The notes below the pieces were generated by a model. It did not search any database. It was not told the DNA's origin and worked only from the letters and a program-made list of their open reading frames with translations. From Acidobacteriota bacterium (GTDB lineage: Bacteria > Acidobacteriota > Terriglobia > Acidiferrales > UBA7541), in the NCBI GenBank assembly GCA_003223295.1, contig QHYM01000113.1, forward strand, positions 1 through 50,631: a DNA stretch of 50,631 nt, written 5' to 3'. Below are positions 18,333 to 36,383 of the stretch, piece after piece. Made by a program: the position numbers and the translations under genes. Within the stretch, counting starts at the first letter, position 1; each line of letters opens with the position of its first letter.

Positions 18333-18374
18333 GGCGTGCGTGTACGACGGACCGTCAGCAAAAGTGAAAAAGAA

Positions 18375-18851
18375 TTACCTGACGGTAGCGACGGGTTCCG
18401 CGACCTCCTCGAGGCGTTTGTATTCGGGACGCTGCAGGAGCTTTGAAATATCCAAAAGGATGATGAGGCGGCCCTTCAGTTTGCCGACGCCGGTGACGTA
18501 ACCGGATTCGCCTTCGGCGAAAACCGTTCCGGGGGCTTCGATATCCGACGGCGGAATCTTGAGCACTTCGGAAGCTGCATTTACGATCAGTCCAACCAGT
18601 TTGTTCTCCAACTCAACCACGAGAATACGGTTCTTTTTGTCGGGTTGAATTTCCGCCTGACCGAAGCGCTTGCGCAGGTCCATCACCGGAATGATTTTGC
18701 CGCGAAGGTTTATAACCCCCTCGATGAGGTCGGGGGCACTGGGCACTGTTGTGATCTCCGGGACGCGGACAATCTCGCGCACGGAGGCGATGCGCACACC
18801 GTACGTTTCGTTGCCGATCCGGAAACCAACTACCTGAAGGTCTTTTTCCAT
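18375..18851 (-). CDS. cheW: Chemotaxis coupling protein CheW (cluster I)
   Basis: The product is 158 aa from ATG 18851, with GGAG 8 nt upstream; a TTG one codon earlier is less likely. It is a single CheW domain: LQVVGFRIGNETYGVRIASVREI, INLRGKIIPVMDLRKRFG and VGLIVNAASEVL. CheW joins the receptor signalling tip to CheA. It is 18 bp downstream of the mcp gene in the cluster I operon. Confidence 0.94.
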   Translation of the reverse strand: MEKDLQVVGFRIGNETYGVRIASVREIVRVPEITTVPSAPDLIEGVINLRGKIIPVMDLRKRFGQAEIQPDKKNRILVVELENKLVGLIVNAASEVLKIPPSDIEAPGTVFAEGESGYVTGVGKLKGRLIILLDISKLLQRPEYKRLEEVAEPVATVR

Positions 18852-18869
18852 CAAAAAGTCTCCGGTCCC

Positions 18870-21310: not shown

Positions 21311-21353
21311 CAACACATCCCCTTTGAGGATAGAAATACCCCGGCAGGAGAAA

Positions 21354-21369
21354 GGCACGTCGGATGCCA
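21354..21369 (-). promoter_or_regulatory. Sigma-54 type promoter P2 of chemosensory operon I
   Basis: On the minus strand the sequence is TGGCATCCGACGTGCC. The invariant GG and GC are separated by exactly 10 nt, as sigma-54 needs. The start of transcription would be near 21343, about 33 nt before the tonB-like ATG. It matches the two other promoters of this island at TGGC and CGTGC. Confidence 0.72.
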
Positions 21370-21489
21370 TGGCAGCTTTTGCTGGAAGAAGTTGCAAACA
21401 GCCGTCGAAGAAACGCCATAACCAATAGACAGCGAGCGAGTTAGCTTTAGGCTGGAGGAAATACGACCGACGCAAAGAAGATGCTTCGA

Positions 21490-21665
21490 GTCTCAGGTAC
21501 CGGCGGCAGGATGGCGGGGGGTCTCAGGCTGAGACGAGGACCGGGGTTCCCAGGTGCCGAAGCCGTAGGCAAGTTCGCAACACGGTACGGGGCGGTCATT
21601 GACTCAGAATGAGACTAACAGGTAGGTTGGAAACTACGGGTTAGGCATCGCTCGCAAATTGAGAC
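21490..21665. promoter_or_regulatory. Cluster of TGAGAC/GTCTCA operator-like sites between the divergent operons
   Basis: A perfect palindrome GTCTCAGGCTGAGAC lies at 21521-21535. A second near-palindromic copy, CTCAGAATGAGAC, is at 21603-21615, and half-sites are at 21490-21495 (GTCTCA) and 21660-21665 (TGAGAC). They lie 150-270 bp upstream of the inferred start of operon I and right before the kinase operon, so they could serve both as enhancer and as autoregulatory site. The remaining intergenic sequence (21370-21489) shows no gene. Confidence 0.6.
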
Positions 21666-24049
21666 GCAAGGTACTTCCCTCTTTGTCACTAAACGCCGAG
21701 AAAGCTACACGATCACGAGGACGAACTCCTTCAGCCGGAAAGGCGACACTGCGTTCGGCCGCTGCTCGTCACGCGAACGAGTTGATGGATCTCGCGGTCG
21801 AGGCAGCACAATCCCGGCATCTTCCCCGCTTCCTTGAACAGTTCGCGTTGCGCTCGGCCCAGATGCTGGATGCCTCTTGGGGCGCCGTAGCCGTGTACCG
21901 GGGCCGCGACACGGAATTCTATGAGATCCCGGGAAAGCGGGGGCCCACTTCTCCCTCTTCTGCGGCATGGCTGCTCGCGAATGCGCGCGAGATTCGAAAC
22001 GAGATGGAAACCCGCGCACTTCCGAAGGAAATGGCCGCCAGCTTGGCGAGCGCGGACGAACCGGGGACCGCGGTTTTCGTTCGAATCGCATCGAGCGACA
22101 AGGAAAAACTCGGAACGCTTTGTTTGTTCCGCAAGAGAAAGACTTTAACACCAGAGGAGAAACGACTTCTGCGGGCTCTGGCGAGCCACGCGGCGCTTTC
22201 GCTCGAGAACTTCCAGCGCTTTTCGCAACTGGAGAGGTCCAAGCGGCAGTGGGTGGAAGATATCGACGCGATCAGCGATTACATCGTGGTGCACGACCGC
22301 TCGTGGAAAATTGTGAGGACTAACCGATCGCTGGCGTCGTATCTGGGAGTTCCGCCCGTAGCGCTCGTGGGCGAGGCGATGAGCAGCCTGCGACAGATTG
22401 CGGAAGCGGGAAGCGACCTGCCGTGCCCGTTCTGCCGCGATACGCAGCGCACGCGGGAAGAATACGTGGCCGCGTCGCCGGAGCGAATTTTCCTGATTTC
22501 CACGTCGCGCACTCCGGGAGTAACGGATGACGACTCGAGAACTATCCATGTCCTCAAGGACATCACCGACCGGCGGGAAGCAGAGCGGCGGTATCGCGAG
22601 CTGTTTGACAGCATTCAGGAAGGATTGTTTTTTGCGACGCCGGAGGGGAGATTCCTGGACGTGAATGACGCGATGGTGCGGATGCTGGGTTATGCGTCGC
22701 GCGAGGAATTACTCCGGGCTGACGTAAGCCCGCACCTCTATCCTGCCCCCGAGGCACGCGAGAAATTCCTGACGGCGCTGGCGGAAAAGGGTGTCTTGCG
22801 CAATTACGAGGAAACGCTCCGGCGGAAAGATGGCACACTGCTTCATACGCTGCAGAACATCACTGCGGTACATGACGCGCGAGGGTGCATCGTGCAGATT
22901 CGCGGGCTGATGTTGGACGTGACCGAGCAAAAATCGTTTCAAGCCCAGTTGCAGCGCGAGCGGGACTTTAACCAAAAAATCCTGAATACCACGCAGAGCA
23001 TGATCCTGGTGCTCGATACCGCGGGATTAATCAGCTACGCGAACCGGCGCTGCTATGAAGCGGGCTATCAGGAGAGCGAGTTGATCGGTCACCGGCTGGT
23101 GGACTGGGTAGAGGTTTCTCACCAGGCGGACTTCGATGCCGCGCTGGAGACCACGGCGAACGGGCATCAAGTGGAAAACCTGGAATTGCGCGCGAAACGA
23201 AGCGATGGCTCCATGGGGCATTTCTCCATTAGCTTGAGCCCGATGCGCGACGAGCAGAATACAGTCAACAGCGTTGTGGTGGTGATGACTGATATTACCG
23301 ACGCCGTGTTGCTGCAAGCGAAGCTGGCGCACAGCGAAAAAATGGCCACCATCGGCCGGCTGGTTTCCGGAGTGGCGCATGAAGTGAACAACCCGCTGGC
23401 AGCGATTCTTGGTTTTACGGATTTGCTGCTGGAGAATCCGGAAGTGCCCGCGTCCGCGCAAGAGGATTTGAAGATCATTCTGCAGGAAACCCAGCGGACG
23501 AAAGACATCGTTCAGGATTTGCTCAGCTTCGCACGGCAGCGTCCGGTGCAACGCGAATTGGTGCAAGTCCATGGTGTTCTGCGGCAGACCATCAAGTTGC
23601 GTAGCTACGATTTTGCGAGCCACGGCGTGGAAGTGACCGAGGAGTTTGAAGAAGGGCTACCGCCGGCTTTGGGAGACGTACAGCAGTTGCAGCAAGTCTT
23701 CCTGAACATCCTGAACAACGCCTATGATGCGGTGCAGGAGACAGGGCGACGCGGCCGGATCAAGATTCTCACGCGGCGGCTAGGGGAAATGATTGAGGTA
23801 GCCATCAGCGACAACGGCACGGGAATCGCGGACCCACAACGGATTTTTGATCCGTTCTACACGACGAAACAAGCGGGAAAAGGTACCGGCCTGGGATTGA
23901 GCATTTGCTATGGGATAGTGCGCGCGCATGGCGGCGAGATTCAATGCTGGAACAATGAAGATGGCGCGGGAAGCACGTTTGTGGTGCGGATTCCCGTGGC
24001 GACGGAAAGCGCGCTGGCGGCCTTGGCTGCAAAGGAGGCGGGGCGATGA
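21659..24049 (+). CDS. GAF/PAS sensor histidine kinase
   Basis: The product is up to 796 aa. The start is uncertain: TTG 21659 has no ribosome site and overlaps a TGAGAC half-site, and ATG 21785 (MDLAVEAAQSRH) is an alternative. Domains in order: GAF (residues about 45-190), then three PAS domains (about 205-305, 310-430 and 435-555). The HisKA domain has His574 (GRLVSGVAHEVNNPLAAILG). The HATPase has DNGTGIADPQRIFDPFYTTK and [15 protein letters not shown]. No membrane segment is visible, so it should be cytoplasmic. The ATGA overlap with the next gene makes a kinase-receiver-NtrC cassette. Confidence 0.9.
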   Translation: MRRKVLPSLSLNAEKATRSRGRTPSAGKATLRSAAARHANELMDLAVEAAQSRHLPRFLEQFALRSAQMLDASWGAVAVYRGRDTEFYEIPGKRGPTSPSSAAWLLANAREIRNEMETRALPKEMAASLASADEPGTAVFVRIASSDKEKLGTLCLFRKRKTLTPEEKRLLRALASHAALSLENFQRFSQLERSKRQWVEDIDAISDYIVVHDRSWKIVRTNRSLASYLGVPPVALVGEAMSSLRQIAEAGSDLPCPFCRDTQRTREEYVAASPERIFLISTSRTPGVTDDDSRTIHVLKDITDRREAERRYRELFDSIQEGLFFATPEGRFLDVNDAMVRMLGYASREELLRADVSPHLYPAPEAREKFLTALAEKGVLRNYEETLRRKDGTLLHTLQNITAVHDARGCIVQIRGLMLDVTEQKSFQAQLQRERDFNQKILNTTQSMILVLDTAGLISYANRRCYEAGYQESELIGHRLVDWVEVSHQADFDAALETTANGHQVENLELRAKRSDGSMGHFSISLSPMRDEQNTVNSVVVVMTDITDAVLLQAKLAHSEKMATIGRLVSGVAHEVNNPLAAILGFTDLLLENPEVPASAQEDLKIILQETQRTKDIVQDLLSFARQRPVQRELVQVHGVLRQTIKLRSYDFASHGVEVTEEFEEGLPPALGDVQQLQQVFLNILNNAYDAVQETGRRGRIKILTRRLGEMIEVAISDNGTGIADPQRIFDPFYTTKQAGKGTGLGLSICYGIVRAHGGEIQCWNNEDGAGSTFVVRIPVATESALAALAAKEAGR

Positions 24050-24444
24050 ACCCTGGGCCTGCTCTTACCACCAAGCTGCCTATTCTGCTGATTGAGGACG
24101 AGCCCTCCGTGATTGCGTTTTTGCGCGCGGCGCTGGAGCGGCGCGGATACGCGGTGGTGGATGCCTCCTCGGGGGAGGAAGGGCTGAAGCAGCTTTCCAA
24201 CGGGCGGTATGCCGGGGTAATCTCCGACATTCGAATGCCGGGGGCGGTAAACGGCGCGGAAGTGCATGAATGGATCCAGAAAAACCGGCCGGAGTTGAAG
24301 TCGCGAATCATTTTGATCAGCGGGGACACAGCCAATAGTGAAACGCAGACATTCCTGGCGCAAAGCGGGACGCCCTGCATCGAGAAACCGTTTCGAGTGC
24401 AGCAATTGATCGCGACGGTGGAGAAGACCTTCGGAAAACCATGA
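24046..24444 (+). CDS. Single-domain receiver protein in kinase-NtrC cassette
   Basis: The product is 132 aa: a receiver domain with acidic residues in LLIEDEPS, phospho-acceptor Asp61 (VISDIRMPG), LISGDTA and the conserved Lys in CIEKPF. There is no output domain. It overlaps the kinase gene upstream (ATGA) and the NtrC-type gene downstream (ATGA at 24441), so all three are made together. It may compete with the NtrC receiver for phosphate or relay it. Confidence 0.9.
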   Translation: MNPGPALTTKLPILLIEDEPSVIAFLRAALERRGYAVVDASSGEEGLKQLSNGRYAGVISDIRMPGAVNGAEVHEWIQKNRPELKSRIILISGDTANSETQTFLAQSGTPCIEKPFRVQQLIATVEKTFGKP

Positions 24445-25850
24445 GCGACGAGATGAAAACACGGTTACTGGTTGTGGATGACGAGCAGAGCATCCGCCGC
24501 CTGTGCATGACGATCGGCAACACGCTCGGATATGTTTGCGTGGAGGCGGAGAGCGCCGAAGCGGCGCTGGGGCGGCTGGAATCCGATGGGCCTGACCTCA
24601 TCCTGACGGACTTGAAATTGCCAGCCATGTCCGGCGTCGAACTTCTGAAGCAAGCGAAAAGGCTCCTGCCCCATACGGAAGTGGCCATCATGACTGGTCA
24701 TGGCTCCATCGAATCCGCCGTTGATGCCATGAAGTTGGGAGCGTACGACTACATCGAGAAGCCCTTTCGTGTTGAAAAGATGCGCCTGCTGCTGCAGCGC
24801 ATGGCGGAGAAAGTCCACCTGGTCACCGAAAATGAGTTCTTGCGGGAGCGAGTGACCACCGCGGATAAGCTCGACGGCATTATCGGCAGTTCGGCGCACA
24901 TTCAAGACGTGATGCGCATGATTTCCAGGCTCAAAGATACGCGCACACCGGTATTGGTTTCGGGCGAGAGCGGGACCGGCAAAGAGCTGGTGGCGCGCGC
25001 AATTCACTTCCGGGGCTCGATGGCCCAGACCCCGTTTGTGGCGGTGGACTGCGGCTCACTGGTTCCCACGCTGATGGAGAGCGAACTTTTCGGATACGAA
25101 AAGGGCGCTTTAACCGGCGCCACGAAATCGAAGGCGGGCCTGTTTCACGCAGCGCGTGGCGGCACGTTCTTCCTCGACGAAATCGGCGAGCTTCCTTTGG
25201 AAATGCAGGCAAAGCTGCTGCGGGTCCTGCAAGAAAAGGAAGTGCGTCCCGTGGGCAGCAACGAGCGGGAGACCGTGGACGTGCGGGTCATCGCGGCCAC
25301 CAATCGCGACCTGGAAGCTGCCTATCGCGCGGGGACGTTTCGAAAGGACCTGTATTTCCGGTTGAATGTGGTGACCGTGCACCTCCCGCCCCTGCGGGAC
25401 CGCCGGTCAGATATTCCTGTGCTGGTGCATCATTTCCTCGACCGGTACGCAAAAGCCTCGCAAATTCAGGTAACGCCGGCGGCGATGAAGAGCCTCCTGC
25501 AATATGATTGGCCGGGAAATGTGCGTGAGCTGGAAAACTGCATCGCGCGCGCCGTGACCCTCGGTGATGGCATGACCATCGACGTGGCCGACCTTCCTCC
25601 CGCAATCCGAGCCGAGCAGGCCGAGGGCGGGTCTGTCCGGACTCCGGAGTCCAGTTCCCTCTCCACTACGGCGCTGGCCGAGATGGAGCGAATGACCATT
25701 CTTCGCGTGTTTGAGCAGGCCAACGGAGACAAAGCGCTGGCGGGAAAAATGCTGGGCATCAGCCGCGCCACCCTTTATCGCAAACTGAAGCGCTACAACA
25801 TCCCGTTAAAGGGCGGCGACAGCGAAGCTGCGTCGACGACACCCTCGTAA
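24441..25850 (+). CDS. NtrC-family sigma-54 transcription activator (GALTGA variant)
   Basis: The product is 469 aa with the full NtrC architecture: receiver with Asp57 (LILTDLKLP), AAA+ domain with Walker A GESGTGKE near residue 175 and Walker [11 protein letters not shown], and a Fis-type helix-turn-helix at the end ([21 protein letters not shown]). The sigma-54 contact loop reads GALTGA (residues 222-227) instead of GAFTGA. It should use ATP to open sigma-54 promoters after phosphorylation by the adjacent kinase. It is the only such activator seen in the window and lies between the operons that carry sigma-54 type promoters. Confidence 0.93.
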
Positions 25851-25954: not shown

Positions 25955-26022
25955 TCTCATGCAACAGCATGAGATAGCGGATCCGGGTTAACACCTGAGA
26001 CGGCATCGTTTCAGGGTGAGAC
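25955..26022. promoter_or_regulatory. Enhancer-like palindrome and TGAGAC sites upstream of P1
   Basis: A perfect inverted repeat TCTCATGC-AACA-GCATGAGA occupies 25955-25974. TGAGAC follows at 25996-26001 and again at 26017-26022, exactly 21 bp (two helical turns) apart; the second is part of TTCAGGGTGAGAC. The TGAGAC pair lies about 109-135 bp before the inferred transcription start near 26131, a normal distance for a sigma-54 activator. Confidence 0.6.
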
Positions 26023-26104
26023 ATCGGCGCTCGTTTCGAACCGCGGGAAAATTCTAAGTCCTTCTGTTTCTTCACCTTCACCAACCATCATCTTTGCATT
26101 TCTT

Positions 26105-26120
26105 TGGCTTGCGGCGTGCA
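26105..26120 (+). promoter_or_regulatory. Sigma-54 type promoter P1 of the PilZ-unknown-H-box operon
   Basis: The sequence TGGCTTGCGGCGTGCA has GG (26106-26107) and GC (26118-26119) separated by 10 nt. Transcription would start near 26131, about 80 nt before the first gene. It shares TGGC and CGTGC with the promoters at 21369-21354 and 28867-28882. Confidence 0.72.
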
Positions 26121-26212
26121 CATTTGTCGTCGGCAGTCTGCGCCTGTTGTAGCGAGGAGTGTCTCTGGTCCCGTTGCGACAAGGCTGATTCACAGCAAAG
26201 TTGCGAGGCGAA

Positions 26213-26566
26213 GTGGGAAGAACCAGCGGCTCGGCATTAGTAGCAAATGAAAAGAGTTGCGCGGAGCAGCTAGCGCGCTTCTTCCCGCAAGCCAGCGCCG
26301 TGCGCGTCCCGGTGCAGGTGACATCACCGCGGGGCGGCGCCACGAATTTGAGGGAGGCGACCATCGTCGAGTTCAGTAGTGGGCGCCACGCCATTTTTCT
26401 TTCGACGCTGCCGCTGGAGTTTGGCGACCGGGTACGGCTCGAAGCAAGGCCGCAGGGTTTTCAGGCAGAGGCCACTGTTGACGCTGTGCAGTATCACGAA
26501 GGACGCAAAGCGGTGGCCGTGCGGTTTTTGCAAGGCTCCTGCGACTGGGTGATGAAACGACCGTGA
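26213..26566 (+). CDS. PilZ-like domain protein lacking the RxxxR motif
   Basis: The product is 117 aa from GTG 26213, with GAGG 4 nt upstream; a TTG at 26201 would add four residues. Residues about 30-110 resemble a PilZ beta-barrel: VRVPVQVTSPRGG, ATIVEFSSGRHAIFLSTLPLEFGDRVRLEA and EATVDAVQYHEGRKAVAVRFL. The arginine pair of RxxxR is absent and the second motif reads EFSSGR, so c-di-GMP binding is doubtful and a protein-interaction role is more likely. Its stop overlaps the GTG start of the next gene (GTGA). It is the first gene after P1. Confidence 0.65.
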   Translation: MGRTSGSALVANEKSCAEQLARFFPQASAVRVPVQVTSPRGGATNLREATIVEFSSGRHAIFLSTLPLEFGDRVRLEARPQGFQAEATVDAVQYHEGRKAVAVRFLQGSCDWVMKRP

Positions 26567-28044
26567 ACAAGACGACGACATTGAATATCCCTGCCCCCAC
26601 ACGGCCTGAGAACCCTCGTCTGGCGCAATGGAAAGAGGCGCGCGAGGTGTTTCCGATCTATCTGGCTCTTGCCAAGCAGCAGGAAATAGACATTCCATTT
26701 CCGCAAGCGAAACGGAATCTCCCCGAGAAGCCGGACGTAGACCTTTTCACGCAAGTGCATGACTGGCTGGATGCCATGGACCAGAAAGTGATGGCCCATC
26801 AGCTCCGGCATCTCCTGCAAATGACCACGCTGAACGCCAGCGAAACCAGCTTGCGCGCCCTGATCCGGCGCCACCTGCGCAAATCGAAAAAGAGCAACCC
26901 GGACCGCGACAAGATTGACTTTCTGCTGGTTCAACACTTCGCGCTGTGCGCCCCGGCGAAGATCTACCACAAGCAAATTGAACTCGGCGACGTGGCCCAG
27001 GTGATGCAGCCTGTGCTCGGCGAGGTAGATCCCGCTCCTCTGGACTGGTGCGCGCCGCTGGAAAAGATGATCACGGCGTTGCGCGGTTTCCGCAGCCTGC
27101 GGGAAATCCTGAAAACCAGTTTCATTGAGGAAGGCCGCAAGGTCAAAGAGTCAGCTGGCGGGATGTTTTATGATCCCGCGGCTCTGCTAGCGTTCATCCG
27201 ATTTAACTTTCTACTCCGCCGGACGTTAATCGAGTTGATGCACGCGGACTTGATCGCCATCCGCGCAGGAGTGGATCAATTGCAAGCCGCCGGCGCTCGC
27301 ACTATCGATTGTCACCATGCCGGACTCCTTGGCGGCGAGCCGCTCGGTAAGATTCGGAAGATTGCCGACGAGTGGAAACAGCCTTTCCAGAAAGAGTACA
27401 CGGAACGCACTGTCAGCCAGGCCTTCGAGAACCTGCTGGGGCTGCGGGGTGACGTGGAGCAAGCGCTCGCAAAAGCAGCCGGGAGTTCCGCCCAAAACGG
27501 TGCTCAAAAAGGACCAATTGACGCTTCGAAGCAGGCCCTCGGTGCGAAGAAAGCCGTGCCGGCGCCTGGATCTTCCCTCCCCAAAGGCAAGCAAAAAGAA
27601 GCACGGGAGACTCCATCGAAGGCTGGAGCTGCTCCCGCGGGAGTGCTGGATTTTGAAACCTGCATGGAGCAGATTTGGGAACAGTTGATTGCTTCACCTC
27701 CTTCCCGCGGGCGATCGATGACCACGGTGAAAATCGGGGGCGCCCGCATTCTGCTGTCGTCCTGGGAAGTCACCGCATTTGTGAGCGAAGACGGACCATC
27801 CGCGGAAGATTTGCGCCGCGCCGTCGTTGCGCGCGTGCTGGTAGCTGCAGCGATGGAATCGGCCAAGGAAACGGGAAACGCCACGTCGCTCGACCGGGCC
27901 ATGAACATGGCGCGCGTGGAAGTGACGCGCTTGCAGGAACGGGTGGACGTGGCGAAGCAGGCAAAGGATACAGAAGCCGCCGTAAATCTCGGCATCAGCA
28001 CGAAACGTTTGCTTTCGACACTGGATGAAGCAGAAAAGCTGTAA
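26563..28044 (+). CDS. Unrecognised 493-aa cytoplasmic protein of the chemosensory island
   Basis: I do not recognise a family. There is no signal peptide or membrane segment. The first 300 residues look alpha-helical (LAQWKEAREVFPIYLALAKQQ, LRALIRRHLRKSKKS, LAFIRFNFLLRRTLIELMHADLIAIRAGVDQL with fewer strands). A Ser/Gly/Pro/Lys-rich linker follows at about 305-355, then a C-terminal module of about 130 residues with strands (MTTVKIGGARILLSSWEVTAF) and a helical end (LQERVDVAKQAKDTEAAVNL). It is translationally coupled to the PilZ-like gene before it and overlaps the H-box protein gene after it. Start is GTG 26563. Confidence 0.8.
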   Translation: MNKTTTLNIPAPTRPENPRLAQWKEAREVFPIYLALAKQQEIDIPFPQAKRNLPEKPDVDLFTQVHDWLDAMDQKVMAHQLRHLLQMTTLNASETSLRALIRRHLRKSKKSNPDRDKIDFLLVQHFALCAPAKIYHKQIELGDVAQVMQPVLGEVDPAPLDWCAPLEKMITALRGFRSLREILKTSFIEEGRKVKESAGGMFYDPAALLAFIRFNFLLRRTLIELMHADLIAIRAGVDQLQAAGARTIDCHHAGLLGGEPLGKIRKIADEWKQPFQKEYTERTVSQAFENLLGLRGDVEQALAKAAGSSAQNGAQKGPIDASKQALGAKKAVPAPGSSLPKGKQKEARETPSKAGAAPAGVLDFETCMEQIWEQLIASPPSRGRSMTTVKIGGARILLSSWEVTAFVSEDGPSAEDLRRAVVARVLVAAAMESAKETGNATSLDRAMNMARVEVTRLQERVDVAKQAKDTEAAVNLGISTKRLLSTLDEAEKL

Positions 28045-28786
28045 CTGGCATGAACAAACGGTTTTGCCTGAACGGACAAATACTCCTGGGAGCGGGTTTT
28101 CTTTGCAACACGCCAACGTAGTCATACTCACGGATGAAACTGAATTTGCCCGGCTGCTGACGGCTTGCTGGCAAGCGGAGCGCCAGGCTCCGGTCGTCAC
28201 GGTTCTGACCAGCGATCTGTGGCAGGAACAAGAAGCCCCAGCACGCGACCTGGTGGTCGTGGGTCCCGTGCGTGAAGGAAAGCTGACAACTGTTCTGCGG
28301 TCACTCGATCCCGCCACCGCGGTCATCTTGTGCGCTCCAGCGGATTCCAAAGAATTCAGTCAATTACGGACCAAATATCCGCGGCTTGTGCATGTGCCCG
28401 TGCGCGAAGATTGGGCGCAAACCTTGCTGCTCGTGGCAGGCGAATCGCTACGCCGTGTCGAAGCCGTGCGGCTGGTTCGCCAGGCGGAGCGAGTTGCCGC
28501 CAAAAACGAGAATCACGCCACCCTTGGGCGCTACATGCTGGAGATGAAGCACAGCGTCAACAACGCCTTGACCTCCATGCTGGGAAACGCGGAACTCCTT
28601 CTGCTGGAACCCGGGCAGCTCTCCTCGCAGTCGCTCGCCCAGATCAAAACCATCCACAGCATGGCTCTGCGAATTAACGAGGTTATGCAACGTTTCTCAT
28701 CGCTGGCTTCGGAGATGCAAGAGGCTGAGAATGCTTCTCAAGCTGAGACGGAACAGACCGGCTCGCCGATTTCCCCGCGCCGCTGA
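28025..28786 (+). CDS. Kinase-like protein with H-box helix but no ATPase domain
   Basis: The product is 253 aa from ATG 28025, inside the end of the previous gene. A TTG at 28103 with GGGAG 10 nt upstream is a serious alternative and would start right at the first domain. The N-terminal half resembles a degenerate receiver (NVVILTDETEFARLLTACWQ, RDLVVVGPV, AVILCAP) without a phospho-acceptor Asp. The C-terminal half resembles a HisKA hairpin: LGRYMLEMKHSVNNALTSMLGNAELLL, with His in the H-box pattern HxxNN. No HATPase domain follows. It could take phosphate from another kinase or act as a dimeric scaffold; both are inference. Confidence 0.68.
   Translation: MKQKSCNWHEQTVLPERTNTPGSGFSLQHANVVILTDETEFARLLTACWQAERQAPVVTVLTSDLWQEQEAPARDLVVVGPVREGKLTTVLRSLDPATAVILCAPADSKEFSQLRTKYPRLVHVPVREDWAQTLLLVAGESLRRVEAVRLVRQAERVAAKNENHATLGRYMLEMKHSVNNALTSMLGNAELLLLEPGQLSSQSLAQIKTIHSMALRINEVMQRFSSLASEMQEAENASQAETEQTGSPISPRR
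28726..28749. promoter_or_regulatory. Triple TGAGAA/TTCTCA/TGAGAC hexamer array upstream of P3
   Basis: Three hexamers, TGAGAA (28726-28731), TTCTCA (28735-28740) and TGAGAC (28744-28749), alternate in orientation with 3-nt spacers. They lie in the last codons of the H-box protein gene, about 145-168 bp before the inferred start of the cluster II transcript. The coding sequence there is Glu/Ala/Gln-rich, so part of the pattern could be chance. Confidence 0.5.
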
Positions 28787-28866
28787 TTTCTCCTTGGGCT
28801 CCTGAAACCTATTCAGAAACAAAGACTTAGCATCACACGACACAACCACACAGGGAATCCCGAAGC

Positions 28867-28882
28867 TGGCTGCTCACGTGCA
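28867..28882 (+). promoter_or_regulatory. Sigma-54 type promoter P3 of chemosensory operon II
   Basis: The sequence TGGCTGCTCACGTGCA has GG (28868-28869) and GC (28880-28881) 10 nt apart. Transcription would begin near 28893, 27 nt before the GTG start at 28920. The GTG at 28878 that opens the longer reading frame lies inside the -12 element, so it cannot be the start from this promoter. Confidence 0.72.
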
Positions 28883-28919
28883 CCTCTTCTCGGTGGAGAA
28901 GTATGGGGAGATTGCGGCT

Positions 28920-29282
28920 GTGCAAAAAAAAGTCCTGATCGTTGATGACTCACCAGCCGAAATCAAGCTGATGCAAAGCCTTTTGGAGAAGGAAGGCTAT
29001 TGGCCGGTGGGGCTGAACGACCCCAAGCGCGTGGAGGAAGCCATCGCTCATGAGCGCCCCAGCGTAATCCTGCTGGATATCGTAATGCCGGATCGCAATG
29101 GATACCAGGTCTGCCGCGACCTGAAGGGGAATTCGGAATTCAACTCCATCCCCGTGATCATGGTGACCTCCAAGTCTTCTGCGAGCGACAAGTTCTGGGG
29201 CGAGCAGCAGGGCGCGGATGGATATGTGACCAAACCATTCACGCGCGACGAGTTGCTTCGCGCCGTCCGGCGGTTTGCGTGA
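28920..29282 (+). CDS. CheY/PilH-like single-domain response regulator (cluster II)
   Basis: The product is 120 aa from GTG 28920, with GGGGAG 9 nt upstream; the longer frame from 28878 overlaps the promoter and is rejected. It is a receiver only: IVDDSPAEIKLMQ, phospho-acceptor Asp53 (ILLDIVMPDRNGYQVC), MVTSKSS and YVTKPFTRDELL. The RNGYQVCRDLKG and FWGEQQGADGYVTKPF features resemble PilH/PilG receivers of pilus systems. It is the first gene of the cluster II operon and is followed by a cheW gene. Confidence 0.9.
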   Translation: MQKKVLIVDDSPAEIKLMQSLLEKEGYWPVGLNDPKRVEEAIAHERPSVILLDIVMPDRNGYQVCRDLKGNSEFNSIPVIMVTSKSSASDKFWGEQQGADGYVTKPFTRDELLRAVRRFA

Positions 29283-29307
29283 GTGTTTTTCGGAGACTGA
29301 GCAGGCA

Positions 29308-29835
29308 ATGAACGACGATTTTCATCTCGAACCTCTTCCGGCTGACGCCGAGACTGGCGACTTGCTGGAAGCACTCGGGCCGATTGAGGACCGCCCTCCG
29401 GAATCGCAGTACTGCGTCTTTCGCAGCGGGCGCGAACGCTTCTGCCTCCCGGTGCTGGATGTGGAAGAAGTGCTGGATTGGCCGCTGGTGACCAAGGTGC
29501 CGCTGAGCCCCGCCTATCTCCTGGGAATTTTCAATTTGCGAGGCGTGATTGTGCCTTTGATTGACATCGCCATTACTGAAGGACGCCGTCCCGGGCTGCT
29601 TCCCAAACACGTGGTTGTCGCTTCGTTGCGGAGCGAGAGCCAACTTGAAGATGTTCGCATCGGGATCACCGCGGACGAAGTGATTGGAACGTATTCGGTG
29701 AAGAACGAGGATTTTCTCGAGCAGGCCCCCGAGAACGTGCCGCATTGCATTGGAATGCTGCGTCACGACGACCGGCTCGCGCTGGTCATCGATCTGCGCC
29801 GGCTGCTTGAAGTGTTTCCGGGTCCCAGCATTTGA
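29308..29835 (+). CDS. CheW/PilI-like coupling protein (cluster II)
   Basis: The product is 175 aa from ATG 29308; a TTG at 29275 overlapping the previous gene is possible but adds no conserved sequence. An acidic N-terminal extension of about 35 residues precedes a CheW domain (QYCVFRSGRERFCLPVLDVEEVL, LLGIFNLRGVIVPLIDIAI, VRIGITADEVIGTY). Its position between the receiver and the mcp gene matches pilI in Pil-Chp systems. It should couple the cluster II receptor to the hybrid CheA. Confidence 0.88.
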   Translation: MNDDFHLEPLPADAETGDLLEALGPIEDRPPESQYCVFRSGRERFCLPVLDVEEVLDWPLVTKVPLSPAYLLGIFNLRGVIVPLIDIAITEGRRPGLLPKHVVVASLRSESQLEDVRIGITADEVIGTYSVKNEDFLEQAPENVPHCIGMLRHDDRLALVIDLRRLLEVFPGPSI

Positions 29836-29895
29836 AGTGACGGGAGACAGCGCCGTGGATGGCGCGAGCTCCGCTGAAAGGATTTGGAGGGTGGC

Positions 29896-31320
29896 ATGAA
29901 ATCGCGATTGAGTTCGACAATCTGGACGTTAGTCCTGTTTAACGGCTTCGCCTTTGTGGCCGTTCTGTGGCTGGCGTTCGGTGCCGGGAAAAAGGCGGGC
30001 GAAGCCTCGGGGTTCGATTTTGGTTCTCCGGGCATTGTCGGCGCCCTGCTGGTGGCGCTCGTTATGTCGGTGATCCTCGCATGGCGTTTTGGAGCGCTGC
30101 TGGGGCCGGTGCAGGCTCTTGCGGACTTCTCCGAGCGGCTGGCCGCTGGTGATCCTCGCGCGCGCGCCGAAGTCAATGCGAGCAACGAGCTTGGCTACAT
30201 CGCGGACAATTTGAATCGCGCGGTTGCTAAAGTCTCGAAGGCCACGAGCAACCAGGACGCCAACGATGCCCTGCAGAGGAGCATCACCGACCTGCTGACC
30301 GTCATCAACCAGGTGGCGCGCGGCGACTTGACCCTGCGTGGCAAAGTCACCAACGACGCTCTGGGCAACGTGACGGACTCCATCAACTACATGCTCGACA
30401 ACTTCACCAAAGTGCTCGAGCGCGTGCGCAAGGCGGCCATGGAAGTAAACGCCTGCTCGAACAACATTCTCGTAGCCGCGGATGAAATGCAGGCTGGTGC
30501 GACCCAGCAGGACCAGGAAATCACCAACACTTCAAGCGCCGTCGAAGAGCTGACCGTCTCGATGAAGCAGGTGTCCAACAACGCGGAAGCCAGCGCCGAA
30601 GCAGCGCGCCGCGCTCTAGACGCCGCCGAACAAGGCAACCGCGCGGTGCGCGACACGCTGGAAGGCATGCAGCGCATTCGTGCTTCTGTGCAAGCCACGG
30701 CAAAGAAAATCAAGTCGCTGGGCGACCGGTCGCTGGAGATTTCGGAAATCATCAACGTGATCAACGACATCACCGAGCAAACCAACCTGCTGGCTTTGAA
30801 CGCCGCGATCGAAGCGGCGCGCGCCGGTGAAGCAGGCCGCGGGTTCGCAGTCGTTGCCGACGAAGTCCGCAAGCTGGCGGAACACAGCCGCAGCGCCACG
30901 AAAGACATCGCAGCTCTGATCAAGGCGATTCAGGCCGAAACGAACGAGGCCGTGGTGGTCATGGAAGAAGGCACCAAGGAAGTGGAAGGCGGAGCGTCTT
31001 TGGCGGACCAGGCCGGCAGAGCCCTCGACGCCATTTCCAACGTCGTTCGCCAGTCGGCGGAACTTGTCCAGGAAATTTCGCTGGCTTCGAAACAGCAGGT
31101 TCGCGGAACAGAAGGCGTGGCGCACGCGATGCAGATTATTTCCAACATCACGCGACAGACTTCGCAGGGCACCCGCGGAACGGTGGCAACCGTGAGCCAG
31201 CTCGTCAAACTTTCGGATCAGCTGAACGAAGCCCTGGCGCAGTTCCGTGCAGGAACCAAGGTCGCGGCGTTAGCTCCAGCGGAATCCGATCGGCCCGTCC
31301 CAGCGGGAGCAGTTCGTTAA
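29896..31320 (+). CDS. Methyl-accepting protein without a sensor domain (cluster II, PilJ position)
   Basis: The product is 474 aa from ATG 29896, with GGAGG 5 nt upstream; the frame from 29884 adds only four residues. Two membrane helices (about 8-29 and 43-63) are separated by about 15 residues ([14 protein letters not shown]), so there is almost no periplasmic domain. HAMP-like segments follow ([23 protein letters not shown] and [21 protein letters not shown]). The signalling hairpin has [19 protein letters not shown] and [14 protein letters not shown]. It probably senses through the membrane or a partner protein. Gene position equals pilJ. Confidence 0.92.
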
Positions 31321-31382
31321 TCGTCTACTCTCTTGCCGGCTCTGCGGAGCAAGCAGGAGCGTAGCCTAAAAACGGGAAAACG

Positions 31383-32267
31383 ATGAGCGAGCGCCAGGGA
31401 CCAGGCCACGGGCTGAGCGAACACGAATTGAGTGAGATCCGCATGCTAATCGAAGAGCGGACAGGGATTTGCTTCGATGAATCGCGTGAGCGGTTTTTCT
31501 CCACGCGTGTGCGGGAACACTTGCGCGCCAAGGGCCTGCAACGTGGAACCGACTTGCTGCGCAGCATGCGCAAATCCAACGTGGAGTACGAGGCGCTGCT
31601 CGAAAGATTGTTGACCCAGGAAACCAGTTTTTTCCGCTATCCCGGAGTCTACGAAGCTTTTGAAAAGCGCGTCTTGCCGGAAATGCACGTGAAGAAATTC
31701 TGGAAGAACCCGCGGACGCTGCGCATCTGGAGCGCGGGCTGCTCGACGGGCGAAGAGCCGTATTCGATCGCCATTACTATCGCGGATTCCTTGTCCTTTG
31801 CGGACTCCTGGAACGTGGAAATCTTGGCCACCGACGTTGGGCGGCACGCGCTGAAGCATGCTGAGCGCGGAGTTTACTCGGGGCGAAGCATCGCCAGCGT
31901 GAACGAGAAGCAGCTCGCCAATCACTTCTCTGCCCTGGAGAAAGGGCAGCAGATCAAGCCGCGACTGCGGAAGATGGTCTCGTTCGCACAGATGAATCTG
32001 GCTTCTCCTGTTTATCTTGGGCGCATGGACGCGATTTTCTGCATGAACGTGCTGATTTATTTTTCCGAGGAACGCCGCCGCGCGCTCGTGCAGCGTTTCT
32101 ATGAAACGCTCGAGCCCGGTGGATATTTGTTTCTAGGGCACTCGGAATCGATTTCGAAAATGCCTGTGAAGTTTCAAGCGATCGTGCTGACCGACTGCAT
32201 TTTGTACCGCAAGCCGACCGCCGACGAATTGCTGAAGCCGGAACTGGTAACGGAGGGACGCGCGTGA
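31383..32267 (+). CDS. cheR: Chemotaxis methyltransferase CheR/PilK-like (cluster II)
   Basis: The product is 294 aa. The N-terminal helical domain (LSEHELSEIRMLIEERTGICFDE) precedes the SAM-dependent methyltransferase domain with LRIWSAGCSTGEEPYSIAI, VEILATDVGRHAL, IFCMNVLIYFSEE and GGYLFLGHSESI. It methylates the cluster II receptor. It differs clearly from the cluster I CheR, so the two systems look like separate lineages rather than a recent duplication. The stop overlaps the GTG of the hybrid cheA gene by 4 nt. Confidence 0.93.
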   Translation: MSERQGPGHGLSEHELSEIRMLIEERTGICFDESRERFFSTRVREHLRAKGLQRGTDLLRSMRKSNVEYEALLERLLTQETSFFRYPGVYEAFEKRVLPEMHVKKFWKNPRTLRIWSAGCSTGEEPYSIAITIADSLSFADSWNVEILATDVGRHALKHAERGVYSGRSIASVNEKQLANHFSALEKGQQIKPRLRKMVSFAQMNLASPVYLGRMDAIFCMNVLIYFSEERRRALVQRFYETLEPGGYLFLGHSESISKMPVKFQAIVLTDCILYRKPTADELLKPELVTEGRA

Positions 32268-35248
32268 GTGCCCCCGAGCGCGCAGCCGTCGAAGTCTTCC
32301 TTCAGGAAGCCGCTGAGCACCTGCAGTATTTGCGCGAATACGTCAGTGTGTTGCAGGACGTGGAACCGCAGCACGAGGACCTCGAACGGCTTTACATTGC
32401 CGCGCACACGCTGAGCGGAACCTCGGCAAGTTACGAGTTTCCGCGATTTTCCGAAATCGCGGGAAAACTCGCGCACGTGTTTCAATACGCGTTGAACGCG
32501 CCTTTGGGCGAAGACCTGCATGGGCCGCTGACCGAATTTCTTTCCGATGGTATCTCGCTGCTTGAAACCGACCTTCTGGAAATTAGCGACACGGGCCAGG
32601 AAAACTTCGAAGACGTTGACGCCTTCAAGGATCGCTATCGCTTCGCGTTTCCCACGGAGCCTCCGCCGCTGAATCTTGCGCAGCCAGGAACTCCCACGCA
32701 GGCCGACGTTGAAGAGTCCGAGGAGCCCACGCCTGCCGCTGCGACCGGGTCCTATTTCGACGCGCTTCCCTCCGACGATGAAGTGCCTGATGAGATTCTT
32801 GAGTTTTTCCAGCCGGAAGCGGAAGAGCACCTGCAAGTCGTCAGCGACTGCTTGATTTCGCTGGAAGCCAACAACAATCCCGAAGAAATCAACAAGCTGT
32901 TCCGCGCGATTCACACGATCAAGGGCTCGGCGGCCCAAGTGGGGCTGAGGCGGCTCGGCGGCATCGCGCACCGCGTGGAAGATTTGATTGGCCGGCTGCG
33001 TGATGGCGAAATCGAGCCGTCGCCCGCGGTCGTGGACCTGTGCCTCGAGTCTGTGGACGTTTTGAAGAAAACTCTCCATCGCCAATGGCCTGGCGAGACA
33101 GAAATGCGCGCGGGCATCGATTCCCTGCTCGGGCGCATTGCGGAGTTTGCTCCACTCGAACCGGAAGAAGCGGAAGCGCAACCCGCACCTGCCGAAGCGC
33201 CCAAACCGCAGCAATTCGTAGAAAAGTTGGCTGCGTCGCAAGCCGCTGCGCCAGGGAAAAAGTCTCCGAAGCAAGTTGCCGCCGCAGCCGCGGCAAAATC
33301 CGTTCGAATCGCGCTCGGCCGCCTGGACCGTATGATGAACACGGTGGGCGAGTTGGTCATCAACCGCACGCGCATGGTGGGCCGCGTCGGAGAACTGGAA
33401 AAGCTCGTCGATACCCTGAGTTTTTCGAAAGAGCGGCTCCAGGGCAAAGTCGGGGAGTTTCAGGAAAAGTACGAATTCAATCGCATCAGTCCCCACCGGA
33501 ATCCGGCCCCTTGGAGCCCGCAATCGGCACAGAAACCGAAGCTGCTTTCCAGCGCGGCGGCCGGTGAGAATTCGTTCTGGTCCGAATTCAGCGAACTAGA
33601 AATGGACCGCTACGACGACGTCAATATTTTGTCGCGTTCTATGGCCGAAATCTCCGCGGACGTGAACGAAGTGCTTTCGCAACTGCAAGGCTTCATCGGG
33701 CGCGTCGAGGGCGATATCGACGAGTTCACCAAACTCGCGCATCACCTGCAAGATGAGATTACCGCAGCGCGCATGGTGCCTATCGGAACGCTGTATTCCC
33801 GGGTGTCGCGCGCGGTGCGGGACGCGGCAAAATCAACCGGCAAGGATGTTGAACTCGAACTTACAGGAAGCGAAACGGAACTCGACAACAACATCATCCA
33901 GCAGATTTCCGATCCCCTCGTCCATCTCGTCCGTAACTCCGTCGCGCATGGAGTCGAGCCCAGAAACGATCGTGTTGCCGCCGGTAAACCGGCCAACGGA
34001 AAAATCATGCTGCGCGCGTATCACCGCGGCAACCATATCTACATCGAGGTTGAAGACGACGGCCGTGGGATTGACTACCAGCGCGTGAAGCAGAGTGCCA
34101 TCGAGCGCGGCCTGGTTTCCGTAGAAACCGCGGACCGGCTCACGGAACGCGACATGCGCGAGATGCTCTTCCATCCCGGCTTTTCCACTGCTCCCGTAAA
34201 GACTGAGCTGGCCGGGCGCGGTGTTGGTCTCGACGTGGTGCGCGCCAACTTGAACGCGCTAAATGGCGAAATCGAGATTCAGAGCGCCACCGGCCAAGGC
34301 ACAAAGTTCACGCTCAAGGTTCCCCTGACGCTGATCATCTCCCCGGCGCTCTTTGTGCGCTGCGGCGCGACCAATTTCGCTTTGCCCTTGGCCGTCGTCG
34401 AGGAAATCCGCCGCCTGCGCGCAGACGAAATCGAGGACGTTGGCGGCAAATTGCTGACCAAGGTGCGGGACGTGGTCACCGAAGTGATTCGCCTGGATAC
34501 CTATCTCGGCCTGCCTCCGCTTGAACCGGTTAATGGATTTTTCCGCATGGTCGTGGCCAATGCGGGAAATCGTCAAATCGGTCTGGTAGTCGAAGAAGTT
34601 CTCGGCAAAGACGAAATCGTGATCAAGAACCTCGGCGAATATCTCCGCCGCGTGAAGCTTTTCCCCGGCACCACCATCGCGCCCGACGGCAGCCTGATTC
34701 TGCTGATTGATTTGAACCGCATGGTGGCCGCGGAACCGAACGAGCACCGGGCGCTCCAGGCAAACGCCAGCGCCGCGCGCATTTTTGCGCCGGGCTCTGC
34801 CGCTGTGGCACGAGGCACCATTCCTTCCGAAGCGATCGATCGCATCGCGCAGGAGCGCGTTGTCGTCGTGGCCGACGACTCCATCAGCGTACGCAAATTC
34901 GTCGGACGCATGCTCGAGAAGAACGGCTACCGCGTGAAGCTGGCCGCCGACGGCCTCGAGGCCGCGGAACTTGTGTCACAGCACGGCTGCCATCTGGTCA
35001 TTACTGACCTGGAGATGCCGCGCATGACGGGTTACGAACTGATGGTGCAATTGCGCCAGAGCCCGTCCACGCGCCGCATTCCGGTGATGGTGGTGACTTC
35101 GCGCGCCGGCGCCAAGCACCGCGGACGCGCCATGAAAGAAGGCGCTTCCGCCTTCTTGACCAAGCCGGTACAGGAGGATCAGTTGATCGCGGCTGTCGAA
35201 CAACTTATGGGAACGGAGGCACCACGCCCGGCTGCGCCCGTGGCGTAA
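32264..35248 (+). CDS. Hybrid CheA/ChpA-like kinase with two HPt domains and a C-terminal receiver
   Basis: The product is 994 aa from GTG 32264, overlapping cheR (GTGA). Domains in order: an N-terminal HPt (His48 in IAAHTLSGTSAS), a second HPt (His217 in RAIHTIKGSAAQVG), an Ala/Pro/Glu linker, and a dimerisation domain (about 340-520). Then come an HATPase with LVRNSVAHGVEPRND, VEDDGRGIDY and LAGRGVGLDVV, a CheW-like domain (about 690-830), and a receiver with Asp915 (LVITDLEMPRMTGYEL). ChpA of Pil-Chp systems has the same HPt-kinase-CheW-receiver plan with more HPt domains. The receiver can act as phosphate sink or relay. Confidence 0.93.
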   Translation: MSAPERAAVEVFLQEAAEHLQYLREYVSVLQDVEPQHEDLERLYIAAHTLSGTSASYEFPRFSEIAGKLAHVFQYALNAPLGEDLHGPLTEFLSDGISLLETDLLEISDTGQENFEDVDAFKDRYRFAFPTEPPPLNLAQPGTPTQADVEESEEPTPAAATGSYFDALPSDDEVPDEILEFFQPEAEEHLQVVSDCLISLEANNNPEEINKLFRAIHTIKGSAAQVGLRRLGGIAHRVEDLIGRLRDGEIEPSPAVVDLCLESVDVLKKTLHRQWPGETEMRAGIDSLLGRIAEFAPLEPEEAEAQPAPAEAPKPQQFVEKLAASQAAAPGKKSPKQVAAAAAAKSVRIALGRLDRMMNTVGELVINRTRMVGRVGELEKLVDTLSFSKERLQGKVGEFQEKYEFNRISPHRNPAPWSPQSAQKPKLLSSAAAGENSFWSEFSELEMDRYDDVNILSRSMAEISADVNEVLSQLQGFIGRVEGDIDEFTKLAHHLQDEITAARMVPIGTLYSRVSRAVRDAAKSTGKDVELELTGSETELDNNIIQQISDPLVHLVRNSVAHGVEPRNDRVAAGKPANGKIMLRAYHRGNHIYIEVEDDGRGIDYQRVKQSAIERGLVSVETADRLTERDMREMLFHPGFSTAPVKTELAGRGVGLDVVRANLNALNGEIEIQSATGQGTKFTLKVPLTLIISPALFVRCGATNFALPLAVVEEIRRLRADEIEDVGGKLLTKVRDVVTEVIRLDTYLGLPPLEPVNGFFRMVVANAGNRQIGLVVEEVLGKDEIVIKNLGEYLRRVKLFPGTTIAPDGSLILLIDLNRMVAAEPNEHRALQANASAARIFAPGSAAVARGTIPSEAIDRIAQERVVVVADDSISVRKFVGRMLEKNGYRVKLAADGLEAAELVSQHGCHLVITDLEMPRMTGYELMVQLRQSPSTRRIPVMVVTSRAGAKHRGRAMKEGASAFLTKPVQEDQLIAAVEQLMGTEAPRPAAPVA

Positions 35249-35255
35249 GAGCAAC

Positions 35256-36383
35256 ATGGTAACCCCTTCCAAGAAGCTCCGCGTGCTCGTGGTGGACGAC
35301 TCCACCTTCATGCGCAAAGTACTGGAGAACATTTACAACGGCGACGGGCAGATCCAAGTCGTTGGCAGCGCCAAGGATGGGCGCGAAGCCGTCTCGATGG
35401 CGGAATCGCTGAAGCCCGATGTCATCTCCATGGACATCAACATGCCACATGTGGATGGCCTGCAAGCGACCGCGGAGATCATGACCACGAATCCGCGGCC
35501 CATCGTCATCGTCAGCTCCGAATCGCGCGAAGGCGCGGCCAGCACTCTCCGCGCGCTCGAGCTTGGCGCCATCGAATTCGTCGCCAAACCATCGAGCGGC
35601 ATCGACCTGGACATGCAAAGCGTGAAGGAAGAACTTCTACGCAAAGTACGCATGGCCGCCAAAGTTCGCGTCGTGCGCACGGCCACGCGATTGGCCTCCA
35701 CGATTCAAAACTCCAGCGGAAATGCAAAGTCAGCCTCAGCGCCGAAGGCCGCTCCTCGCCCGGCAGCTGGCAGCGGCAGTGATCAGCGCTTTCCTGTCGT
35801 GGTTTTAGTGGCCTCCACTGGCGGCCCGGCGACAGTCATGCGCATCGCTCCCGGCTTCACGCGCGACTTCCCTGCTGCCGTAATCCTAGTGCAGCACATG
35901 CCCGCGACGTTTACATCGCAATACGCCGCGCAACTCGCGGAATTCACAGAGATCCGCGTGAAGGAGGCGGAGGCGAATGAGTCTCTCGCACCGGGCACGC
36001 TTTACATTTGTCCCGGCGGACAACACCTTCGCGTAACGCCCACGGGAAGAATCCAGCTCGAAGGCGCATCCGGCCGCATCAACGGATACCTGCCCAACAT
36101 GGACGTCACTATGGAATCGGTTGCCGCCTACGCCGGGCCCTTGAGCATCGCCGCAGTGCTCACAGGTATGGGCAACGACGGTACCAACGGTGCACGGGCT
36201 ATTAGGACAGCCGGCGGTCTTGTCCTGGCGCAAGACGAAGCGACCTGCGTGATTTTTGGGATGCCTGCGGAAGCCATCAAAGCGGGGGTGGTGGATCAAG
36301 TCCTCGGCATTGACGACGTTTACCAAGCCATTGAAAAGCGCGTTGTGGGGATTTGCAAACCCACCCCCGCGGGAGTTCGCTGA
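35256..36383 (+). CDS. cheB: Chemotaxis methylesterase CheB/ChpB-like (cluster II)
   Basis: The product is 375 aa. The receiver has Asp60 (VISMDINMPHVDGL); an Ala/Ser/Pro linker (about 145-175) leads to the methylesterase domain. Catalytic Ser, His and Asp are in VASTGGPATVM, VQHMPATFTSQYAAQL and LTGMGNDGTNGARA. Unlike ChpB of Pseudomonas it keeps the receiver, so phosphorylation control is likely. Its TGA shares one base with the ATG of the next gene (TGATG). Confidence 0.93.
   Translation: MVTPSKKLRVLVVDDSTFMRKVLENIYNGDGQIQVVGSAKDGREAVSMAESLKPDVISMDINMPHVDGLQATAEIMTTNPRPIVIVSSESREGAASTLRALELGAIEFVAKPSSGIDLDMQSVKEELLRKVRMAAKVRVVRTATRLASTIQNSSGNAKSASAPKAAPRPAAGSGSDQRFPVVVLVASTGGPATVMRIAPGFTRDFPAAVILVQHMPATFTSQYAAQLAEFTEIRVKEAEANESLAPGTLYICPGGQHLRVTPTGRIQLEGASGRINGYLPNMDVTMESVAAYAGPLSIAAVLTGMGNDGTNGARAIRTAGGLVLAQDEATCVIFGMPAEAIKAGVVDQVLGIDDVYQAIEKRVVGICKPTPAGVR

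Follow-up and report, generated by a model that had tools for sequence, protein, structure and literature searches.

Three plus-strand genes of an Acidobacteriota bacterium, within positions 1 to 50,631 of contig QHYM01000113.1 (assembly GCA_003223295.1; this 50,631-nucleotide stretch is the window below), form an operon between a regulatory cassette and a chemosensory cluster. We infer, at about an even chance, that the operon is under sigma-54 control, that it encodes a non-catalytic adaptor module for a chemosensory system of the type IV pilus type and that it works in the manner of FimL of Pseudomonas. The original prediction, made from the DNA letters, had proposed an accessory signalling module that links a second messenger, an unknown effector and phosphotransfer. 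Its accessory place beside a pilus-type chemosensory cluster is borne out by a conserved operon, a common promoter type and strong co-occurrence with the cluster. The sequences themselves show the conservation of the operon, a corrected gene start, conserved promoters and dyads (one dyad being embedded in coding sequence), degenerate motifs, and the paired absence of two of the genes. We number the genes by order: gene 1 is PilZ-like, gene 2 encodes a 493-amino-acid (493-aa) unknown protein and gene 3 is HisKA-like.

26201..26566, plus strand: gene 1, small PilZ-like protein without [DN]xSxxG; start at TTG 26201 or GTG 26213
26563..28044, plus strand: gene 2, 493-aa protein of an undescribed family
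28103..28786, plus strand: gene 3 with its corrected TTG start, an N-terminal region followed by a HisKA-like (DHp) region and no HATPase; the open reading frame as first called was 28025-28786

The three same-strand open reading frames were found as predicted (26201/26213-26566, 26563-28044 and 28025-28786), and no member of the operon falls in a characterised family. Two overlaps had been claimed between the genes, and one of them stands. The junction of genes 1 and 2 is a GTGA overlap at 26563 in the window, and in 33 orthologs it is GTGA in 28, ATGA in 3, TTGA in 1 and CTAG in 1, which makes 32 of 33 with one of the first three. The other overlap, of 20 nt with gene 2, depended on a gene 3 start at ATG 28025, which is ruled out by a conserved TTG/GTG start (TTG in 34 and GTG in 2 of the 36 sequences from the window and 35 orthologs) placed before a conserved stretch that runs into VxILTD. 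A GGGAG-like Shine-Dalgarno sequence precedes this start in most of the 36, and 20 of them have no alternative in-frame start upstream of it. With gene 3 starting at TTG 28103, the gap after the gene 2 stop is 58 nt. Judged by the GTGA overlap and this gap, coupling is tight between genes 1 and 2, with gene 3 a short way behind.

Scanning contigs with the 493-aa protein, we found 35 loci whose identity of 58-86% fits the window's genus, and we call these the close loci. In all 35, as far as the contigs reach, the order is histidine kinase (HK), response regulator (RR), NtrC, gene 1, gene 2, gene 3, CheY-like, CheW, MCP, CheR, CheA, CheB. Gene 3 of locus L034 was located by profile search, and the regulator of L010, first labelled RR_B, was placed later from the promoter analysis. 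The genes could have turned out to be scattered and not co-occurring in other genomes, and for the operon this kept order says that they are not. Loci from further genera and from a second family of the class share this order (L055, L058, L072-L074, L076-L081 and L089). Some of the other-genus loci are without genes 1 and 3, L077 is without the cassette on the covered stretch, and the end of a contig or stretch truncates L075 and L088.

Gene 2 has matches in 69 of 95 genomes of an order-level sample: all 36 genomes of the genus, 28 of the 53 that come from elsewhere in the family, and 5 of the remaining 6, which hold remote relatives only. A single-protein search of a phylum sample found it in 12 of 396 genomes, four of which, the window's own included, matched at E < 1e-50. 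Searching the phylum with an alignment of the close relatives found 6 of 396; since this is fewer than the single protein found, the remote spread is poorly measured. The tree that we used was made from the 493-aa protein and NtrC, and its long branches (L077, L081, L058, L057 and L076) are unsure. A first tree was dropped because the MCP and CheR used in it for L027, L075 and L082 probably belonged to the left cluster. Locus L017, from a record titled Betaproteobacteria, falls among the acidobacterial close loci in the tree, and that label is probably wrong.

For the presence of genes 1 and 3 we scored 50 loci with both flanks of gene 2 visible (the window, L002-L034, L055, L057, L058, L072-L082, L088 and L089). 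Both genes are present in 45, although in L075 gene 3 is cut by the contig end. Both are absent, with gene 2 kept, in five (L058, L076, L078, L079 and L082), and neither was ever seen alone (0 of 50). The genomes of these five loci contain no gene 1 match anywhere, and the gene 3 profile gave generic HisKA hits only, at 47 bits or less versus 290-345 bits in three positive genomes. The L082 genome has 6% contamination, and most of its right cluster is missing. On the tree the presence of genes 1 and 3 needs 4 changes, some on long branches. Among the residues of the 493-aa protein, we found no alignment column that is lost together with genes 1 and 3. Because genes 1 and 3 flank gene 2 and are jointly absent where gene 2 is kept, the pattern suggests paired action of the two on a gene 2 core.

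Candidate control sites accompany the operon and both che clusters. They are sigma-54-like -24/-12 sites and dyads of the form GTYTCA-N3-TGAGAC.

21353..21370, minus strand: sigma-54-like -24/-12 site ATGGCATCCGACGTGCCT of the left divergent che cluster
21521..21535, no strand assigned: dyad GTCTCAGGCTGAGAC, candidate activator site of the divergent region, near the minus-strand sigma-54-like site
26008..26022, plus strand: dyad GTTTCAGGGTGAGAC, candidate activator site 96 nt upstream of the operon's -24 element
26104..26121, plus strand: sigma-54-like -24/-12 site TTGGCTTGCGGCGTGCAC of the three-gene operon
28735..28749, plus strand: dyad TTCTCAAGCTGAGAC within gene 3, coding for SQAET, candidate activator site of the Che operon
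28866..28883, plus strand: sigma-54-like -24/-12 site CTGGCTGCTCACGTGCAC of the Che operon

The operon's site keeps TTGG-N10-GC in 34 of 34 sequences (the window and 33 close loci), and in 46 of 49 rows (all but L003, L081 and L088) a dyad with at most one mismatch is positioned at -87 to -98 relative to the -24 box. Just before the CheY-like gene, TGG-N10-GC occurs in 34 of 34 close loci that hold the gene and in 11 of 13 others (not L077 or L078), a count that leaves out L057 and the remote loci. GTG 28878 falls inside the -12 box of this site, so the CheY-like gene probably starts at GTG 28920. For the left cluster, 30 close loci cover the region, and 27 of them have a similar site (L012, L018 and L027 do not). 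In the DNA alignment the sigma-54-like boxes stand out as conserved islands. The original prediction had assigned one promoter type to the operon and the cluster, and it was right: a -24/-12-like site precedes both and is kept in the orthologs. A scan for sigma-70 promoters and terminators gave nothing useful. Upstream of the conserved operon dyad, at 25955-25974, the window has a perfect inverted repeat, TCTCATGCAACAGCATGAGA.

The dyad of the Che operon lies within gene 3, and as TCTCA-N3-TGAGA it is exact in 38 of 44 loci, has one mismatch in 5 and is absent in L078. An adjacency rule dropped L027, L072, L077 and L080 from this count; a separate scan found the dyad exact in L072 and L080 and did not find it in L027 or L077. 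The embedded dyad codes for SQxET, and we compared its codons with the rest of the genes (n=45; L074 has no motif match and is not counted). The Ser codon is TCT in 41 of 45 versus 65 of 829 (7.8%) in the rest of the same genes, the third base at x is T in 44 of 45 versus 1054 of 6257 (16.8%) elsewhere in the genes, and Glu is GAG in 44 of 45 versus 367 of 837 (43.8%) elsewhere in the same genes. Where gene 3 is gone, the dyad is left in the gap, exact in L058 and L079 and with one mismatch in L076; L078 has none. The simplest reading is that this is a candidate activator site held inside a gene and constrained at the DNA level.

Across the genus sample the dyad occurs in 36 of 36 genomes, with 1-4 forward matches each, and there are 177 strand matches to it versus 11 to the reversed pattern (palindromic sites count on both strands). 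A loose scan of the 50-kb window that allows 2 mismatches is at chance level (6 found versus 5.8 expected), and the case for the dyad is carried by position and conservation. The arrangement of a sigma-54 regulon with an enhancer-binding protein, GG-N10-GC with an upstream dyad at a fixed distance, is present in the DNA, and the operon's products are probably co-expressed with the chemosensory array. We examined 16 stretches around further dyads. Nine of these dyads precede a membrane-type GGDEF protein (L130, L132-L136, L142, L143 and L145; in the window's own genome, contig 274 near 13224), three precede a different gene that is taken up below, and four are in other places. The GGDEF identity comes from one scanned protein (E 2.5e-38) and the motif in 4 of 4 checked, the rest being assigned by their shared N-terminus. 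In all nine GGDEF stretches the dyad start is followed, 206-210 nt further downstream, by a GG-N10-GC-type site, and a diguanylate cyclase may belong to the same regulon, which would be a different link to cyclic di-GMP (c-di-GMP).

The name PilZ-like holds for gene 1 as far as a sub-threshold Pfam hit of the window's protein (E 0.18, 12.6 bits versus a curated 22.5), but none of the 35 other aligned members has a PilZ hit at E up to 1. The window's genome has 39 PilZ matches at E 0.001 and gene 1 is not among them; hhalign of gene 1 with 12 of them gave a probability of 2.4% and an E of 0.02 for this single comparison. The [DN]xSxxG motif is found in none of the 36 gene 1 members, compared with 9 of 12 PilZ domains from the same genome. 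R...R strings occur in 19 of the 36 at differing positions, and the combination of RxxxR and [DN]xSxxG does not occur. Because [DN]xSxxG is absent from all members, the case for c-di-GMP sensing by gene 1 is weakened.

Gene 3 had been described as an H-box protein. The HisKA similarity behind that name is real, being found, at a limit of E 1, in 31 of 32 aligned members (lowest E 2e-6; the window's protein has E 1.2e-4 and 22.5 bits, below the curated 26.9), but the His is not family-wide. At its position (codon 28550-28552 in the window) the 32-sequence alignment has His in 25 and Pro in 7 (L072, L073, L074, L088, L089, L077 and L081). The state of this residue changes at least 3 times on the tree while the operon is kept. 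Around it much of the sequence stays, in LTS, GN, MxLR and Q/ERxxSL stretches, and since this is also retained where the His is gone, the dimer-like part seems to be under selection without it. Kinases carry an acid directly after the phosphoacceptor His, and the residue after the His of gene 3 is Ser, Asn, Thr, Gly or Ile. HATPase_c is not among the families matched by any of the 32 members. The N-terminal part begins like a receiver and has an invariant Gly-Pro (32 of 32) that would fall where the phosphorylated Asp of a receiver sits; hhalign with receiver profiles gave a probability of 0.9%, with only the first half aligned. With no kinase domain and Pro in place of His in 7 of 32 members, the case for a phosphotransfer role of gene 3 is weakened.

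The 493-aa protein of gene 2 has no hit near any cut-off in Pfam, NCBIfam or the PDB sequences, and eight relatives in other neighbourhoods have no Pfam match; judged by these searches it belongs to an undescribed protein family. It has an all-helical N-domain (about residues 16-312), a variable linker, and a C-domain (about 361-493) with a beta hairpin and helices. In structure models the mean predicted local distance difference test (pLDDT) score is 78 for the full protein and 89 for the N-domain modelled alone, which has a predicted template modelling (pTM) score of 0.85. Foldseek found no match in the PDB at E 0.001 or better for the whole model or for the N-domain. VIA-align gave the N-domain a best Z of 6.1 (73 residues, 3.0 A), which does not speak for kinship, and a new fold is possible for this model. 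Against the PDB the modelled C-domain matched designed helical repeats as well as common three-helix arrangements, with Z reaching 11.3 (105 residues, 4.2 A), and we read the likeness as a generic arrangement. In one genome, G084 (L057/L147), gene 2 is without the C-domain and several kb separate NtrC from gene 1.

Two degenerate signalling domains around an undescribed middle protein make the set probably a protein-binding add-on, rather than a new relay of phosphate or of a second messenger. The proposed link of second messenger and phosphotransfer is not supported, with [DN]xSxxG in 0 of 36 gene 1 members, no HATPase, and a His that is Pro in 7 of 32 and Asn in L034. We picture the module as follows. 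Sigma-54 polymerase and one enhancer-binding protein would switch the operon on together with the adjoining che clusters; this activator would most simply be the NtrC-type protein of the adjacent cassette, acting at the GTYTCA-N3-TGAGAC dyads. The core of the module would be the helical, new-family 493-aa protein, bound to the chemosensory machinery or to the output of that machinery. The PilZ-like and HisKA-like proteins would act as a pair, through binding rather than catalysis, and for this the former need not bind c-di-GMP and the DHp-type dimer of the latter need not carry phosphate. Jointly the three proteins may tether or tune a response regulator or kinase at the pilus machinery, as FimL does, and so have a role in pilus control. 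It is possible, if rather doubtful, that they are a new kind of non-catalytic adaptor for type IV pilus chemosensory systems, in which a helical family with possibly a new fold joins a degenerate PilZ protein and a degenerate histidine-kinase dimer, with an origin independent of FimL and gene 3 doubling as the enhancer of the Che operon.

Several observations weigh against an adaptor of this kind. Genome G023 holds a solitary relative of gene 1 with the other two genes not adjoining, and G084 keeps all three genes though its right Che cluster is reduced to CheR. The His of gene 3 is kept in 35 of 36 close sequences (Asn in L034; L001, the window itself, is left out), so phosphotransfer may yet occur in the window's near relatives. 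Three of the 16 further dyads precede an RsbR/STAS gene (L137, L139 and L141, one of them scanned; in the window's own genome, contig 456 near 21291), and in these stretches we found no clear sigma-54 site. Finally, in 19 loci a 493-aa paralog (L056) or remote relatives (L059-L071 and L083-L087) have no adjoining CheA, CheW or MCP hit, so the core domain is not chemosensory-specific. The paralog, in genome G265, is full-length (31% identity, E 1.3e-57). The neighbourhood survey thus gave a divided answer: the operon co-occurs strongly with a Pil-Chp-like cluster, but this paralog and the remote relatives live elsewhere.

One other account is feedback. The HisKA-like protein would form mixed DHp dimers with the cassette kinase (21659-24049) and so tune the NtrC-type activator, with the other two proteins modulating; RetS acts on GacS by such mixed dimers. 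It fits with the gene 3 profile, which picks up the cassette kinase in 15 searched loci (in the window at E 1.1e-7, for a small set), and with one promoter type and dyad common to the operon and both che clusters. Two of the 19 loci also have a small DHp protein directly after the remote gene 2 relative, L059 (9298-11493, carrying HisKA and HATPase_c) and L062 (8211-10495), possibly an ancestral kinase pair. However, other HisKA proteins score equally or better with the gene 3 profile in several of 8 genomes searched genome-wide, and the 5 loci that lack gene 3 retain the cassette kinase. We consider feedback unlikely. The operon may instead sit in the regulon and have some other surface-related job, such as exopolysaccharide or envelope control. 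The dyads before the diguanylate cyclase and the RsbR/STAS gene would agree with this, as would the unrelated neighbourhoods of the paralog and remote relatives, but against it stands the fixed place beside the same Che operon in the 35 close loci and most loci of other genera. We consider this reading unlikely too. Least probable of all is a relay in which the gene 3 product is phosphorylated by the hybrid CheA and hands the phosphate on, with c-di-GMP control added by the PilZ-like protein. For it speak the His of the close sequences, the HisKA similarity (31 of 32) and the dyad of the GGDEF protein; against it stand the replacement of the His within the same operon, by Pro in 7 of 32 aligned members and by Asn in L034, the missing HATPase, the absence of an acid after the His and the lack of [DN]xSxxG in all 36 sequences.

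The adaptor reading also draws on the neighbours. The operon lies where the original prediction had put it, between an HK-RR-NtrC cassette (21659-25850) and a CheY-CheW-MCP-CheR-CheA-CheB cluster (28878-36383).

21659-24049: cassette kinase
24441..25850, plus strand: NtrC-type sigma-54 activator, the cassette's last gene (REC, Sigma54_activat, HTH_8)
28878..29282, plus strand: stand-alone response regulator, CheY/PilG-like, borders as called
29275..29835, plus strand: CheW
29884..31320, plus strand: MCP
31383..32267, plus strand: CheR
32264..35248, plus strand: hybrid CheA (two Hpt stretches, H-kinase_dim, HATPase_c, CheW, REC)
35256..36383, plus strand: CheB

Downstream of this cluster are two CheW-like proteins, a receiver with DUF4388 (37474-38247; DUF4388 also goes by the name PATAN) and one more receiver. 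A second che cluster (MCP, CheR, CheA and CheB) lies left of the cassette in divergent orientation, at 14174-20882 on the minus strand. It has its own sigma-54-like site and dyads, and in L055 a small secreted-looking open reading frame precedes its MCP. The parts expected of a Pil-Chp or Tfp-class system are all present behind the operon: MCP, CheW, CheR, CheB, a hybrid CheA with Hpt and REC, and stand-alone CheY-like regulators. The window's genome (6.0 Mb, 95% complete, with the window as its contig 309) has 0 matches to the FlhA family and 8 matches, 7 of them above the cut-off, to T2SSE-family (PilB/PilT/GspE) ATPases, and for this reason a type IV pilus is the likely target of the chemosensory cluster.

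Pil-Chp of Pseudomonas aeruginosa is similar in its CheY-like protein, CheW, MCP, CheR, hybrid CheA (Hpt and REC), CheB and extra CheW-like proteins and response regulators, and the T2SSE-family ATPases without an FlhA match agree with this. It differs in that ChpA has 8 potential Hpt domains where the window's CheA has two Hpt stretches, and the window adds the sigma-54 cassette, the three-gene operon and the second, divergent che cluster. In FimL both putative phosphoacceptor positions are occupied by Gln, and the protein contributes to the polar placement of PilG (PMC3019171, PMC10519157). What it has in common with the operon is phosphotransfer-like domains without the His that work with a pilus chemosensory system (PMC3019171, PMC10519157). 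FimL is Hpt-like, however, whereas gene 3 is HisKA/DHp-like and the 493-aa protein is helical without a match, so the likeness is in logic and we claim no homology. Gene 3 resembles pseudo-histidine kinases in having a HisKA-like region, no catalytic domain and, in some members, no His. It is unlike them in that here the operon persists through at least 3 changes of the His on the tree. In one survey only 0.9% of HisKA domains lack the His (PMC12632262). PlpA of Myxococcus xanthus is like gene 1 a small stand-alone PilZ-type protein, and it acts in surface motility control (PMC8316039); for gene 1 the relation to PilZ is unproven, given the profile probability of 2.4% and the missing [DN]xSxxG.

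Conserved intragenic sigma-54 sites are already known (PMC4591121). Chemosensory clusters and sigma-54 control are likewise known kinds, and what is new is the operon variant with a new protein family. In titles and abstract beginnings of the open-licence literature on pilus or chemosensory systems of Acidobacteria, or on sigma-54 and chemotaxis, there was nothing about the operon. The open-licence literature had nothing on Acidoferrales motility, nor on a pseudo-histidine kinase with chemosensory systems.

Acidobacteriota are abundant soil bacteria, and outside Pseudomonas, Myxococcus and cyanobacteria little is known, to our knowledge, about the way in which pilus chemosensory arrays steer their pili. 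The operon gives a protein family with a testable role. It also gives a clear candidate for an activator site that is kept inside coding sequence and retained after gene loss. If the adaptor reading is true, a second, unrelated phosphotransfer-like protein without the His on a pilus array would suggest that such arrays need a tethering partner.

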